Part shown: piece by piece, positions 3,640-38,823 of the stretch
Numbering within the stretch: the first letter of the stretch is position 1
Layout of the letters: each line of letters starts with the position of its first letter
IMG/VR virus record: IMGVR_UViG_3300032083_003038
Span: 1 to 39,661 of that record
Direction: 5' to 3' (one strand)
DNA: 39,661 nt
Source: a virus
Position numbers and translations under genes: made by a program
Notes under the pieces: generated by a model
Databases searched by the model: none
Seen by the model: the letters and a program-made list of their open reading frames with translations, nothing else
What the model was told of the DNA's origin: nothing

Positions 3640-4267
3640 ATCGAAAATGTCGTCGCGTCAGTTCGATACTGAGGTCAAGTTCGCTGACGACTCCAGGACG
3701 ATATTCGGGATTGGCTCGCCATTTTACGATGGAACGTCCCGGACTGAGTTTAGAATATTCAAGGACCTGGTCGAGCGGGTCGATCCAGGGGCTTTTGATA
3801 AAGTCATCGCGGACACGACGGTCGATGTTCTGTCATCGCTGAACCACGACATAGAACGGCAGTTGCTTGGGAGGCGGAGCGCAGGGTCCCTAAAGCTATC
3901 AAAGAATTCCGCTGGTCTCGTGTTCGAAGTCACGCCGGGAGAGACGTCACAAGCCAGGGACACCATAGAACTCATCCAGCGTCGCGAGGTCAAGGGCGCG
4001 TCGATTTGGTTCGGGCGCGCCGATGAGCTATGGACGGAGGAAGACGATCAGACCGTGGTCACGTTGATGTCGATACCCCTCATCGAAGTCGGACCCGTTT
4101 CCCGGCCGGCCTTTGACGCGACGACTGCCGAGGTCCGCAAGCGTGACCTGGACGACTATCGTAAGCGCATGGCAGAGAAGGCAGAGCACATGCGACGACG
4201 GATGGCGACGGAATCGGCAAGGTGCCGTTTGCGTGAGCGTGAAGCGTGGGTGTATCAAGAGGTTTGA
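3629..4267 (+). CDS. Prohead maturation protease, HK97 U35 family
   Basis: Serine protease that trims the delta domain of the capsid protein during prohead maturation. In 212 residues the catalytic elements are visible: H73 in LNHD, S125 in VKGASIWF, and E153 in LIEVGPVSRPAF, the family signature. The C-terminal 45 residues are Arg/Lys/Glu-rich helix. The start overlaps the portal stop. In most HK97-like phages the major capsid gene follows directly. Here it is 2.1 kb further on, because the reverse-strand cassette at 4268-6062 lies between them. Confidence 0.95.
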   Translation: MLVESKMSSRQFDTEVKFADDSRTIFGIGSPFYDGTSRTEFRIFKDLVERVDPGAFDKVIADTTVDVLSSLNHDIERQLLGRRSAGSLKLSKNSAGLVFEVTPGETSQARDTIELIQRREVKGASIWFGRADELWTEEDDQTVVTLMSIPLIEVGPVSRPAFDATTAEVRKRDLDDYRKRMAEKAEHMRRRMATESARCRLREREAWVYQEV

Positions 4268-4445
4268 AGTTGGCAAATCTGCCCGTTGCAACGCTTCACG
4301 GAGCACCGCAACGCCGTGCAGGGCAAAGCCGCTCCTCGCCGCTCATCGCTGGTCGTCTCTTCTCAATTCCGCCAAATCTGGCCGTTGGTAAGGTGTGCCG
4401 CGCTCGGCAATGGTCTGCTTTGCTGCGCTCCGCTTCGCTCTGCTT
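4268..4445. repeat. Intergenic hairpin repeat, copy 1
   Basis: Non-coding module between the protease and the reverse-strand ParB-like gene. It has a small hairpin GGCAAATCTGCC (4272-4283) followed by CGTTG, about 75 bases of GC-rich sequence, a box CTTCTCAATTCC (4359-4370), then a second hairpin GCCAAATCTGGC (4371-4382) again followed by CGTTG, and a tail of imperfect GCTTYGCT-like units up to 4445. The same layout recurs at 5105 and 5903. The two hairpins share the AATC loop but differ in the stem by swapped base pairs. ORFs drawn through it are not credible. Confidence 0.85.
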
Positions 4446-5081
4446 CTAAATCAGCTTTTTCAGCACCTTCAACCGTTCCATCAACTTTTCATTGTCTTTT
4501 TCAAGCAGGTCGTTTTCGATCAGCGTGATCAGCTGGTTGACGTAGAACAGTTGATTCATACCTGACAGGCGTTTGTTCGCGTCGACTTGTTTCTTGCTGA
4601 GCGTCTTCCCAGACATGTGCTTGATTGTCTGTTTAAGTGGAACTTCGCTCCCGTTGTCTTTCGCGACCCTGGTGCGAAGTCTTTCAAGGTCTTCCGGAAG
4701 ACAATTGAGAACGGTGCACAACTGCGATTCGTCCATGCCAAACTTATTGCCGAGTACAACGACTCGTACGCGATCGCATTCCGTTAGCGCCCTGCCGTGA
4801 GTTCCGTTCAATCGCGCGGCTTCGGCAAACATCGCTGATTCGCTCGGGTAAGTCTTCAGAACACATGGTACTTTGCAGTCTGGTCCGTAGACCTTGATAT
4901 GCGCTCGACGGCGATGGAACCCGTCGATGATCTTGTTTGACGTCTTGTCGATCAGCAAAGGTGGCAGTTCAGCGCCCGCTTTTAGTGCTGACGCTAACGT
5001 GCCTACGTGATACCCGCCGACATCGTTTCTCGGGTACAGATCGAAATCCTCTATCAGTTGCGAAGCGTTCATCATTCTCAT
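4446..5081 (-). CDS. ParB/sulfiredoxin-like nuclease-domain protein
   Basis: 211 residues on the reverse strand, opposite to the surrounding structural genes. Residues 1-75 look like a ParB N-terminal domain: a DFDLYPRND segment, LPPLLIDKTSNKIIDG, then GFHRRRAH at 54-61, the usual phosphate-binding box. Residues 80-145 are helical (FAEAARLNGTHGRALTE, then a possible helix-turn-helix around 115-135) and the C terminus is a Lys/Glu-rich coiled coil. It has a good AAGGAG site 8 bases before the ATG. The family includes DNA-binding and nuclease proteins in phages and plasmids; the exact role here is unknown. Position between protease and capsid, bounded by repeats, marks it as an acquired cassette gene. 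Confidence 0.75.
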   Translation of the reverse strand: MRMMNASQLIEDFDLYPRNDVGGYHVGTLASALKAGAELPPLLIDKTSNKIIDGFHRRRAHIKVYGPDCKVPCVLKTYPSESAMFAEAARLNGTHGRALTECDRVRVVVLGNKFGMDESQLCTVLNCLPEDLERLRTRVAKDNGSEVPLKQTIKHMSGKTLSKKQVDANKRLSGMNQLFYVNQLITLIENDLLEKDNEKLMERLKVLKKLI

Positions 5082-5104
5082 TTACGGTTCTCCTTGTGTT
5101 TGTT

Positions 5105-5263
5105 GAGTGGTGGCAAATCTGCCCGTTGGGTTGCTGTGCTTCGCAAGGCAATGCCATGCTTCGCGTTGCAATGCTGTGCTTCTCTTCTCAATTCCGCGCC
5201 AAATCTGGCCGTTGGTGCGCTTAGCTTTGCGTCGCCATGCGGGGCTTCTCGCCGCCTCTGTGG
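5105..5263. repeat. Intergenic hairpin repeat, copy 2
   Basis: Second copy of the module, between the two reverse-strand genes. Hairpin GGCAAATCTGCC at 5112-5123 plus CGTTG, GC-rich spacer with GCTTCGC-type units, the box CTTCTCAATTCC at 5183-5194, hairpin GCCAAATCTGGC at 5198-5209 plus CGTTG, then another GC-rich tail. A two-base insertion (GC) separates the box from the second hairpin. On the reverse strand it lies just upstream of the ribosome-binding site of the ParB-like gene. Confidence 0.85.
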
Positions 5264-5878
5264 TTAATCTCTCAACTCAGCTTCATATTTTCCCATGTGG
5301 ATCGACACCCATTTCATGCCATCACGCCTGGTACGGCCGCAACCGATTCCGTGACGTCCGGCGATATTGAAAGCCTGAGTAAATGCCCCCAGGCTTTTGC
5401 GCGCCAGGACGTCAGTGTCGATTTGAAACGTAGCGATGCCACCCCACGTTCGCCATTTCGGGCGTGATGCAAGTATGCCGCCGCTTTTTTTGTTAACGAC
5501 TCTCCGCGTGTCCACGACCCAGTCCGCTTCGCCTAATTCGCGTGGCTCCTTATTGGTCAAGGTATCTGGATCGAGCAAAATAAATTCCTCTTCCGCAGGT
5601 TCCACCGCTCGGGCAACGATGGTCGTGATGGCCTCACCCCCGATCGTGCGGCCGGTAACCGTCACCAACGACGCCCAAAATGCGTGCATGGGATGGTAGA
5701 ATTTGCCGTCTTCCGTGCGATAAAGCTGATTGGCGGCATCGTCGTATGCTTTGCCTGGCACGGACTTCTTTTTGGCCTCCATGTTGCCGGTATCCTCCTT
5801 GCGCTCCATGACATTGACAAAGTTCGATTGCATGAGCGGTTTCATTCCGCGAATGTTCCAGCTGACGAGTTCTAACAT
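5264..5878 (-). CDS. Conserved phage protein of unknown function
   Basis: 204 residues, reverse strand, with AAAGGAG about 8 bases before the ATG at 5878. The layout recalls a widespread phage family: an N-terminal strand with a short ...RGMKPLMQ motif, a central segment DTRRVVNKKSGGILASRP followed by a Trp-containing strand (KWRTWGGIATFQID), an Ala/Gly-rich helix, then GIGCGRTRRDG near the C terminus. I know this arrangement from uncharacterised phage proteins often found near recombination genes, but cannot name a function. It forms the second gene of the reverse-strand cassette. Confidence 0.6.
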   Translation of the reverse strand: MLELVSWNIRGMKPLMQSNFVNVMERKEDTGNMEAKKKSVPGKAYDDAANQLYRTEDGKFYHPMHAFWASLVTVTGRTIGGEAITTIVARAVEPAEEEFILLDPDTLTNKEPRELGEADWVVDTRRVVNKKSGGILASRPKWRTWGGIATFQIDTDVLARKSLGAFTQAFNIAGRHGIGCGRTRRDGMKWVSIHMGKYEAELRD

Positions 5879-5902
5879 CTGGCGTTCTCCTTTAAAGAAA
5901 AA

Positions 5903-6062
5903 GTGTCAAGTCTGACCGTTGCAACGCTGTGCAGTGCGGAGCAAAGCGGAGGCCCGCAAGGCTACGCCGGGCGCTTCTCTTCTCAATTCCGCCAAATCTG
6001 GCCGTTGCTTTGTTTTGCTTTGCCCGCAACGCTCCGCAACGCCGTGTACACGGCGACCCGGA
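5903..6062. repeat. Intergenic hairpin repeat, copy 3 (variant stem)
   Basis: Third copy of the module, upstream of the 5264-5878 gene on its strand. The first hairpin is GTCAAGTCTGAC (5905-5916), with a third kind of base pair at stem position 2 and a changed loop, followed by CGTTG. The box CTTCTCAATTCC lies at 5979-5990 and the second hairpin GCCAAATCTGGC at 5991-6002, with CGTTG after it. A GC-rich tail with repeated GCAACGC units runs to about 6062. Confidence 0.85.
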
Positions 6063-22678: not shown

Positions 22679-23097
22679 TCGCCTAACTCCTCCGACGTTA
22701 GTGGCTCGAATTTCTCTTGCATGCGATCAATCGCGGCGATCAAACCGTCAGCGTGATCTTGGTCAACGGCCGTCTTTGCTGCGCGTTGCTTACACACCGC
22801 TGGGGGCGCGTCGATTTGCACGAACGATCTAGTCCAGGACTCTGACTTCCATTCATCCCGACGTTTTTTTGTGGTGTTCGTTGCGTCCAGGATCACAGTC
22901 TCATGACCAGCGAGAAACAGTGCTCGTACCATGACGTGAGCGATCGCCCAGACGAATGGCTCGGCAAGTCCAATAAAAGGCTTACCATGCAAAGCAAGGC
23001 GAATTGAATCCGGATTGACGATAGGATCGCCCTGGCTTCTAGTCCATGTAGTTTTACCGGATTGTGGTAGTCCAACGGTCAGAATGAGATTCTTCAC
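22657..23097 (-). CDS. P-loop kinase, polynucleotide-kinase-like
   Basis: 146 residues of the AAA_33/Pnk kinase type. Walker A GLPQSGKT at 9-16, a NPDSIR box at 29-34 (the Asp is at the place of the catalytic Asp in T4 Pnk), and DATNTTKKRR at 71-80, a family signature. Members transfer phosphate to 5-prime ends of RNA or DNA. It starts in an ATGA overlap with the upstream HAD phosphatase gene, and the pair together correspond to the two halves of T4 Pnkp. Substrate not visible from sequence. Confidence 0.75.
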   Translation of the reverse strand: MKNLILTVGLPQSGKTTWTRSQGDPIVNPDSIRLALHGKPFIGLAEPFVWAIAHVMVRALFLAGHETVILDATNTTKKRRDEWKSESWTRSFVQIDAPPAVCKQRAAKTAVDQDHADGLIAAIDRMQEKFEPLTSEELGECRIPAK

Positions 23098-23744
23098 TGT
23101 AGTTTCTCGCTATGCTTTAGGATAAGGCTGGCAAACTCGGCCGCCTCGTGCTTCGGAAGTGCAAGCCAGCCCACGGGCTTGCCAAAATCGACCCGGACGC
23201 AGTTGCGCCATGTCGTTACAATCATCTTCAAGTCACCTTCATCGTCGTCATCGATACGACCTTTCGAATGTGTTCCTTGTAATCCAAGTTCGTGCCTGTC
23301 GACGAATGCGCGACATTCACGGAGAGCTCTGTCGAAGTCATAGTTCTCAACGTCCTTCGTTGGCCGGCAGATCACTGCCCGATCGTCCACATAAGCGACG
23401 GCCATCGGTTTTCCAGGAAGTTTCCAAATGCCGTGATAATCAAACGCATGCTTATCGAGCCACGCAACGACAGGGTCTAACTCCGTGCGGCTGGTATGAA
23501 TCAGCACGCGAGCAAAGTCGCTCAAAGCGCGTATAAATCGGACAGCACCAGAAATAGGTAGTCCGATATGGTTATCGCCTTTCCATCCGTCGTAGTGGGC
23601 TAGAACCCCGTCCAGGTCAACGCATACCGTTTTCCTCATAGTGCTTTCTCCTACAGCCGTCTCCCGCATACGAGCGCGGCGTTCTATCGCATCGTCGAGC
23701 CGAGACTGCTCGGCGTCGTGTTCGAGCTTTTCGAAGTAATCCAT
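23094..23744 (-). CDS. HAD-family phosphatase
   Basis: 216 residues. After a 35-residue helical lead, the HAD core is complete: motif I VDLDGVLA with D43 and D45, motif II LIHTSR with T84/S85, motif III K112 in LPGKPMAVAY, and motif IV VDDRAV with D120/D121. The last 60 residues are an extra domain (RNCVRVDFGKPVGWLALPKH). A second Met at residue 36 could be a later start. Co-translated with the kinase, it probably removes 3-prime or other phosphates as the phosphatase half of an end-healing pair. Confidence 0.75.
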   Translation of the reverse strand: MDYFEKLEHDAEQSRLDDAIERRARMRETAVGESTMRKTVCVDLDGVLAHYDGWKGDNHIGLPISGAVRFIRALSDFARVLIHTSRTELDPVVAWLDKHAFDYHGIWKLPGKPMAVAYVDDRAVICRPTKDVENYDFDRALRECRAFVDRHELGLQGTHSKGRIDDDDEGDLKMIVTTWRNCVRVDFGKPVGWLALPKHEAAEFASLILKHSEKLQ

Positions 23745-37263: not shown

Positions 37264-38823
37264 ATGTTTAAGCCGGAACCCCTAGAGCATCGATTGCTCT
37301 TGTCCGTGGACACTGGATCGCTTTTGGTCCATGTGTCCGATGCGTTCATTGCTGAGGAGCACGCTTCAATTGATGGCATGTCCCTTGGTGTCATTGGCTC
37401 AAGCGGCTACGGCCAGCTGAATCACGCAGGCATCGACCAAAGCAAGGCGAAGTTGGCGGCTCTGAATAGCGGGCTGTTCGATTACGTCGGTCCGAATCCA
37501 ATTCTGACTGTGGACGTAGTCCCCGACGACCCGCTGTTCTCGCGGCTCTGGGGGATGGAAAAGATCGATGCGCCAACCGCATGGGACACGGTTACTGACG
37601 CCAGCGGTGTGGTCGTCGCTTCGATCGATACGGGCGTCGAACTAACGCATCCCGACCTGGCCGCGAACATCTGGACCAATCCGGGCGAAATACCGGGCAA
37701 CGGAATTGATGACGACAATAACGGGTTTATCGATGACGTCCACGGCTGGGATTTCGTCAACAACGACAACGACCCGATTGACGATCATTTCCACGGCAGC
37801 CATACGAGCGGGACGCTGGGAGCTGTCGGGAATAACGCCGAGGGCGTCGTAGGTGTTGCTTGGTCCGTTCAGATCATCGCCTTGAAATCGTTCAGTTCAT
37901 CTGGCTCTGGTAGCCTCGGCAACATCATTCCGGCGATCGATTACGCTGCGGATATGCAATCGCACATCAGCAACAACAGTTGGGGCGGTCGTGCTGTGCC
38001 GACTGATCCCGCTTGGGCACCGCTCCGGGAGAGTATCGAGCGGGCGGGGCAAATCGCTGACCACTTGTTCGTCGCGAGCTCCGGAAACAGCAACACGGAC
38101 AACGATACGTCTCTTCTAAAGAATTTACCGGCCGCTTGGGATTCGCCGAACATCCTGAGCGTGGCAGCCAGCACGCAGACAGACGGAAAAGCAAGTTTTA
38201 GCAGCTATGGCTTGACGACGATCGACCTTGCTGCACCAGGTGTCGCCGTGCATAGCGCAGGGCTGGGCGGAACCTATCGCGATGCCTCGGGAACATCGAT
38301 GTCTTCGCCACACGTTTCGGGTACAGCGGCCCTATTGAAAGCCCAGAATCCTGACTGGGGCTATCAGGAAATTACAGACCGCATCATGGCGACGGTCGAT
38401 CGTGTTGGCCCGTGGGACGGTCTGGTGATCAGCGGTGGACGCTTGAATGCAGCGGCAGCTGTTGGCGATGCACCACCACCCCCACCCCCACCCCCACCTC
38501 CACCACCGCCCCCGCCGCCTGAAAACCGGGCACCAATCGCGGAACCTGATTCCTTCGGGGCGCGAAAGGTCATCAACGCCAATTCCAAATCGTCGATTCT
38601 AAATAACGATACGGACCCGGATGGCGATCCGATTTTCGCGGTACTCGTTGACGGGCAAAGTCATGGCACGATGTCCCTGTCCCTCGACGGGCGTTTCCAC
38701 TACAAAGCAGAGAAGGGCTTTTCAGGCTTGGACAGCTTCAGCTACAAGGCGGTGGACATCCATGGCGCGGAATCCGAGGTTGTGCTTGTGGAATTGGATG
38801 TTTTGGGAACGGGGAAGCGTTGA
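37264..38823 (+). CDS. Subtilisin-like protease with LEPR-type N terminus
   Basis: 519 residues. FKPEPLEHRLLLS at 2-14 is a close variant of the planctomycete LEPR-XLL start motif. The S8 catalytic domain is complete: D122 in ASIDTGVELTHPDL, H177 in FHGSHTSGT, oxyanion N275 in ASSGN, and S345 in GTSMSSPHVSGTAALL. DDDNNGFIDD at 149-158 may bind calcium. A run of 16 Pro follows (about 405-420), then a cadherin-like/VCBS-type domain (NRAPIAEPDSFGARK ... DSFSYKAVD). It should be exported, cut proteins, and bind a surface through the C-terminal domain. Unusual in a phage; probably acquired from the host. Confidence 0.9.
   Translation: MFKPEPLEHRLLLSVDTGSLLVHVSDAFIAEEHASIDGMSLGVIGSSGYGQLNHAGIDQSKAKLAALNSGLFDYVGPNPILTVDVVPDDPLFSRLWGMEKIDAPTAWDTVTDASGVVVASIDTGVELTHPDLAANIWTNPGEIPGNGIDDDNNGFIDDVHGWDFVNNDNDPIDDHFHGSHTSGTLGAVGNNAEGVVGVAWSVQIIALKSFSSSGSGSLGNIIPAIDYAADMQSHISNNSWGGRAVPTDPAWAPLRESIERAGQIADHLFVASSGNSNTDNDTSLLKNLPAAWDSPNILSVAASTQTDGKASFSSYGLTTIDLAAPGVAVHSAGLGGTYRDASGTSMSSPHVSGTAALLKAQNPDWGYQEITDRIMATVDRVGPWDGLVISGGRLNAAAAVGDAPPPPPPPPPPPPPPPPENRAPIAEPDSFGARKVINANSKSSILNNDTDPDGDPIFAVLVDGQSHGTMSLSLDGRFHYKAEKGFSGLDSFSYKAVDIHGAESEVVLVELDVLGTGKR

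Follow-up and report, generated by a model that had tools for sequence, protein, structure and literature searches.

A very probable VIPR locus with a divergent guide repeat in the genome of a tailed phage

The Viral Interference Programmable Repeat (VIPR), an RNA-guided system of DNA recognition first described in 2026 (PMC13142463), is encoded mainly by phages or prophages and, as outlined in that description, comprises a RAMP-like protein (Vipr), a vap gene and vrRNAs. According to the same source, a vrRNA consists of 9-16 GGY/NN pentamers and an invariable structured 3' tail, the consensus being given as GGY/NN 'or a related consensus' with hypervariable positions; Vipr is a RAMP homologue with an RRM core, a G-rich loop and a thumb; and the vap companions have a predicted DNA-related function. 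Silencing of dsDNA targets is reported to rely on the NN dinucleotides, with one base skipped, and to be directed mostly at competing phages (PMC13142463). VIPR has been proposed as the ancestor of the CRISPR RAMPs. In the type II system of Escherichia phage SUSP1 (PMC13142463; PDB 36pp), the pentamer lattices are reported to give rise to transcripts, to which Vipr binds.

The window analysed here is the whole stretch of 39,661 nt of the IMG/VR virus record IMGVR_UViG_3300032083_003038. On the minus strand, its region 4268-6053 very probably constitutes a VIPR locus with a divergent guide repeat. The locus belongs to a tailed phage, in which it lies between the gene for the prohead protease and that for the major capsid protein, and is organised on this strand as vrRNA pair - vipr - vrRNA pair - ParB-like gene - vrRNA pair. 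As this arrangement fits the VIPR plan feature by feature, the hairpins of the locus are interpreted as vrRNA tails and its GC-rich segments as guide tracts, and the locus is not a new class of RNA. In the 5' to 3' direction of the minus strand, the first module includes the guide tract of vrRNA E3b (6007-6041; 3-4/12 pentamers in phase), which was delimited by reading of the pentamers, is short, contains one 4-nt unit and is possibly degenerate; its 3' tail hairpin CAACGGCCAGATTTGGC (5991-6007), which was recognised by pattern and folding and folds alone; a linker GGAATTGAGAAGAGAAG (5974-5990), corresponding to the box of the preliminary description; the GCNNN guide tract of vrRNA E3a (5921-5975; 10/12 in phase, reached by 0/2000 shuffles); and its tail hairpin CAACGGTCAGACTTGAC (5905-5921), located 26 nt upstream of the vipr start codon. 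The vipr gene (5264-5878, minus strand) codes for a RAMP/Cas7-like RNA-binding protein of 204 aa of the phrog_4652 family, assigned on the basis of profile and predicted fold. It is followed by the GCNNN guide tract of vrRNA E2b (5214-5255; 7/10 pentamers in phase) with its tail hairpin (5198-5214), a linker GCGGAATTGAGAAGAG (5181-5197), and the guide tract of vrRNA E2a (5128-5183; ten unbroken GCNNN units, 10/12 in phase) with its tail hairpin (5112-5128). The candidate vap gene (4446-5081, minus strand) codes for a ParB-like protein of 211 aa. The guide tract of vrRNA E1b (4387-4447; 9/12 in phase) begins at the stop codon of this gene and is followed by its tail hairpin (4371-4387), a linker GGAATTGAGAAG (4359-4370), the G(C/A)NNN guide tract of vrRNA E1a (4288-4358; 10/15 in phase) and a last tail hairpin (4272-4288), situated 4 nt past the stop codon of the plus-strand prohead protease gene. 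Furthermore, a perfect palindrome of 12 nt, CCGTGTACACGG (6042-6053), precedes E3b, the first vrRNA, on its 5' side and is possibly an operator or promoter element; in a sigma-70 consensus scan of the locus, no promoter stands out and no transcription start is visible.

GC-rich segments had been reported between paired hairpins, and they are indeed present, but they form a strict lattice of 5 nt, GC followed by NNN, in one phase, which does not stop at the second hairpin of a pair and extends to about 4447, 5255 and 6041. When the dinucleotides of each intergenic region are shuffled 2000 times, the observed lattice count is reached in only 0-1 of the shuffles, and stretches with at least 7/12 pentamers in phase are confined to the three modules across the whole 39.7 kb. 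On the minus strand, which is the strand of both genes between the modules and the sense strand of the arrays, the typical unit is GAGAAGC -> (NNNGC)n -> AACGG -> hairpin. In 40/52 window units GC is followed by a purine, so that GCR/NN is possible, a G precedes GC in 10/52 units, and the broken units show CC, GA or GT in place of GC. The window lattice does not follow the strict GGY/NN motif, its period of five being strict but GC alone being fixed; the GC/NNN lattice, weakly GCR/NN, corresponds to a related consensus with hypervariable positions. The proposal of a processing or regulatory RNA, and that of selection on structure, pointed in the right direction, the hairpins fitting vrRNA 3' tails, but had missed both the lattice and its sense strand.

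The six hairpins in three pairs and the conserved box before every second hairpin, noted in the preliminary description, were all recovered: hairpins of 17 nt (plus-strand form NNCAARTCTGNNCGTTG) occur at 4272, 4371, 5112, 5198, 5905 and 5991, and the box CTTCTCAATTCCGC at 4359, 5184 and 5979. With up to two mismatches, six hairpins are observed versus 0.73 expected from shuffles, none of which reaches six. As vrRNA tails, the six copies have 14/17 invariant columns and all fold the same 4-bp hairpin, which reads on the minus strand as AACGG, then the 4-bp stem with a GATT or GACT loop. All six tails follow their lattice in the 3' direction of the strand that encodes vipr, an order also seen in SUSP1, so that each repeat tract ends in a structured 3' tail, as in the described vrRNAs. 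Covariation of the stems had been taken as a sign of selection on structure. Pairing is kept, the second stem pair being G-C, C-G or T-A and complementary in every copy, but the covariation is weak on its own because it concerns one varying pair, with two compensatory changes, and 92/500 shuffles reach the same; the six copies represent three distinct sequences, in which three of the four stem pairs are invariant. The module with the hairpins had also not been recognised as a known RNA or repeat family, in agreement with Rfam, in which the hairpin region has no match at the gathering threshold or at E up to 0.5.

A scan of viral contigs for ten consecutive GCNNN units, which used no protein information, returned at least 119 viral loci, which hold long pentamer arrays, often several per locus, with hairpins between them. 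A family profile was made from array-adjacent ORFs carrying a G(I/L)G-x-x-R motif. The phrog_4652 family is encoded in 88 lattice sources among the matches listed (at least 119), nearly all at 500 nt or less from the lattice, and no family member was found in 264 kb of control viral loci; a protein-blind lattice scan can thus find VIPR loci. The family gene is also found beside a pentamer lattice in the cultured phages SUSP1, wV8, phiHSIC, UmaThurman and Trine, whose genes score 134-170 bits (134 for SUSP1 Vipr) with a profile built without the window protein. The window protein itself obtains 64.9 bits with this profile (E=1.2e-19) and is the sole match among the 239 window ORFs. It matches phrog_4652, a family of unknown function (E=3.4e-6), and a search of the PDB with the profile of this family identifies entry 36pp, 'SUSP1 Vipr protein' (E=7.5e-38). 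The AlphaFold model of the window Vipr (pLDDT 84.3, pTM 0.81) resembles RAMP subunits of the Csm3/Cas7 kind, with a Foldseek E of 7e-6 and a VIA-align Z of about 12 across some 167 residues, and the predicted fold is Csm3/Cas7-like. On the basis of the profile scores, of the match to 36pp and of this fold, the protein is a RAMP homologue, with an atypical G-loop: GIGCGRTRRDG versus the usual GIGDFRP. It also lacks the usual GDxRP...FGRF residues and forms the longest branch of the Vipr tree, its nearest relative, in the contig L129, sharing 28% identity. Queried alone, it gave no tblastn match in cultured phages and no meaningful phmmer match in the PDB; neither PADLOC nor NCBIfam has a model for Vipr, and no close relatives of the phage were found by portal or Vipr protein. 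The Csm3/Cas7 subunits of type III CRISPR-Cas systems share the fold of the window Vipr, with 7-10% sequence identity, whereas the locus has no CRISPR array. A class 1 CRISPR-Cas system was considered and rejected, the tracts being constrained to a period of five and no second cas-like gene being present among the neighbouring genes tested.

On the sense strand, 61/89 scored loci have the motif GGC/NN, and others have CGC/NN, GCA/NN or GCC/NN. Among these 89 loci, a GC-only motif was found in the window, in L055, in the near-identical group L034/L086/L094/L116 and, as one short run, in L056. When mapped on the Vipr tree, the repeat classes are clustered overall (9 changes versus 14.6 when shuffled, with 0/200 shuffles as low); the GC/NNN class alone shows no clustering. 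The variation of the motif from locus to locus (GGC, CGC, GCA, GCC or GC only) can be seen for example in L020, L035, L049, L111 and L135. In L037 (2120-2460) and L060 (199-508), the pentamer arrays are separated by strong hairpins whose stems are clearly compensatory (GGCAAACACACTGCAYCTC..GAGGTGCAG..TTTGC versus ..CGGCGC..GCGCCG..), and these hairpins are better suited than those of the window to a covariance model of vrRNA tails or spacers. No ribozyme was detected with Rfam in 20 VIPR loci. An uncharacterised protein (MGKPKKMVSATSHDVQWVGVRAALL...) adjoins the pentamer arrays in 16 loci, including L043, L046, L072, L075, L079 and L083, and is possibly the product of an accessory gene. Searches by exact pattern were less productive: the viral contig L003, which matched the exact hairpin and box patterns, is coding sequence without hairpins; the two-hairpin pattern had 0 matches in viral contigs and 7 in genomes, all of them unrelated repeats or genes; and the 4 matches to the hairpin-plus-lattice pattern are all unrelated.

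The possibility had also been raised that the modules are a small mobile element, or a site of recombination through which the two reverse-strand genes arrived. According to such an explanation, they would be recombination or homing sites of a mobile cassette that brought two moron genes between protease and capsid, and it is true that two minus-strand genes interrupt the conserved protease-capsid order, each bounded by a module, and that in the Felixounavirus wV8 the vipr/vap pair likewise lies between annotated direct repeats. The wV8 repeats, though, are vrRNA units of a VIPR locus. The cassette of the window contains no integrase or transposase, its two genes being Vipr and the ParB-like gene, and no recombinase or transposase with its sites, as in an insertion sequence or integron, was found. 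Furthermore, the modules vary in NNN yet keep the GC lattice, a feature for which sites of recombination would have no use, and the association of protein and lattice in 88 loci (among the matches listed) also disfavours a cassette. Both proposals are left unsupported, since other phages carry the same kind of arrays around homologues of the 5264-5878 protein in VIPR systems, and a mobile cassette is a highly improbable explanation. In phage wV8 (L137), the direct repeats DR_4 (2759-2816 and 4152-4209) are parts of vrRNA units and surround gp95 (vipr) and gp94 (vap); the record notes gp96 and gp93 as similar to Felix O1 and gp95 as similar to phiHSIC, which suggests that the presence of vipr/vap in wV8 is cassette-like.

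The ParB-like protein encoded in the window matches phrog_1033 (E=6.6e-12) and has no match in Pfam and none in cultured phages. Among the matches listed for the 120 lattice sources scanned, homologues were found only in L129, L070 and L063 (phmmer E 7e-43 to 2e-33), each of which also matches phrog_1033. Like the window, these three loci carry the ParB-like gene beside Vipr and pentamer arrays, the arrays of the IMG/VR contig L129 being interspersed. Unlike the window, they have GGC/NN repeats and different tails, and in L129 the ParB-like gene precedes Vipr. From its sequence and position, this gene is a candidate vap accessory of the locus, and would add to the candidate accessory genes for VIPR. 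Its presence within the locus could also suggest that the lattice is a protein-binding array in dsDNA, such as a centromere-like site for the ParB-like protein, and not a guide RNA. This is extremely improbable given that the lattice accompanies Vipr in 88 sources (among the matches listed) and the ParB-like gene in only 4, that in the loci read by eye the GGC-type lattices have the same sense as vipr, as expected of an RNA, and that the SUSP1 lattices are reported to be transcribed and Vipr-bound as RNA (PMC13142463).

Compared with the SUSP1 system (PMC13142463), the VIPR locus of the window shares (i) a small phage-encoded RAMP protein, beside which a candidate companion gene is found, and (ii) vrRNAs located upstream and downstream, each consisting of a tract of pentamers and, 3' of it, a constant structured tail, in the same sense as vipr. 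It differs in its repeat (GC+NNN versus GGY/NN), in its tail (a hairpin of 12 nt versus a much longer, pseudoknotted tail), in its candidate companion gene (ParB-like versus vap1, phrog_5926), in its paired vrRNAs in every gap and in its very divergent Vipr. Similarly, the family member ORF22 of the Listonella phage phiHSIC is antisense among virion genes with GC-lattice arrays behind it, as in the window, whereas its repeat resembles GCA/NN and no ParB-like gene is annotated beside it. Judged by sequence, the combination of a GC-only repeat, in which one of three fixed bases has been lost, and a diverged Vipr departs from the VIPR type as described in PMC13142463. The divergence of the window Vipr, the fixation of only 2/5 bases, the broken units and the irregular unit of E3b could be those of a remnant, truly descended from VIPR, in which the guide tracts have drifted and become inactive. 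Such a remnant is improbable, since the vipr and ParB-like reading frames are intact and have ribosome-binding sites, the six tails are near-identical and show compensatory changes, and the lattice of GC has been retained far beyond chance. If GC alone is held by Vipr, three bases of each pentamer would be available for pairing, and the locus could then represent a lineage with a different guide code, read as consecutive triplets with no skipped base and not as two bases plus a skip, which is considered rather unlikely. The locus raises the question of which pentamer bases pair with DNA and is a natural experiment on the co-evolution of a protein and its guide code.

Transcription of the minus strand would yield six vrRNAs, each with about 6-15 pentamers, composed of a fixed GC and a variable NNN, and with a short structured 3' tail. 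Judging from SUSP1, Cas7-like Vipr subunits would polymerise along the vrRNA, one per pentamer, hold the fixed GC and present the variable bases to DNA, and the resulting RNP would bind a gapped DNA target and silence it, the target being probably in a competing phage or satellite. By analogy, the locus probably allows the phage to find and silence the DNA of rival phages. Viral contigs were searched with the guides E2a and E1a, assuming pairing of bases 2-3 of each NNN and a skip of 1 nt. Guide E2a gave 23 stretches, of which the best, in L157, matches all 20 guide bases; about one full match of 20 bases is expected by chance, as estimated from base composition, and the skip base in L157 falls on codon position 1 and not on the wobble position. 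Because of this chance expectation and of the wrong codon phase, L157 is not claimed as a target. Guide E1a gave 1 match, without extension. In the loci from the lattice and target searches, no guide beats shuffled guides except E2a, whose excess is circular, as those loci were retrieved using E2a; the matches in viral contigs and retrieved loci are thus nothing beyond chance.

Elsewhere in the window, a phage phosphoheptose isomerase family protein (23094-23744, minus strand; phrog_1238, E=4e-14) is encoded in a block of minus-strand genes, and a phage subtilase (Peptidase_S8) fused to a bacterial Ig/cadherin-like domain is encoded at 37264-38823.
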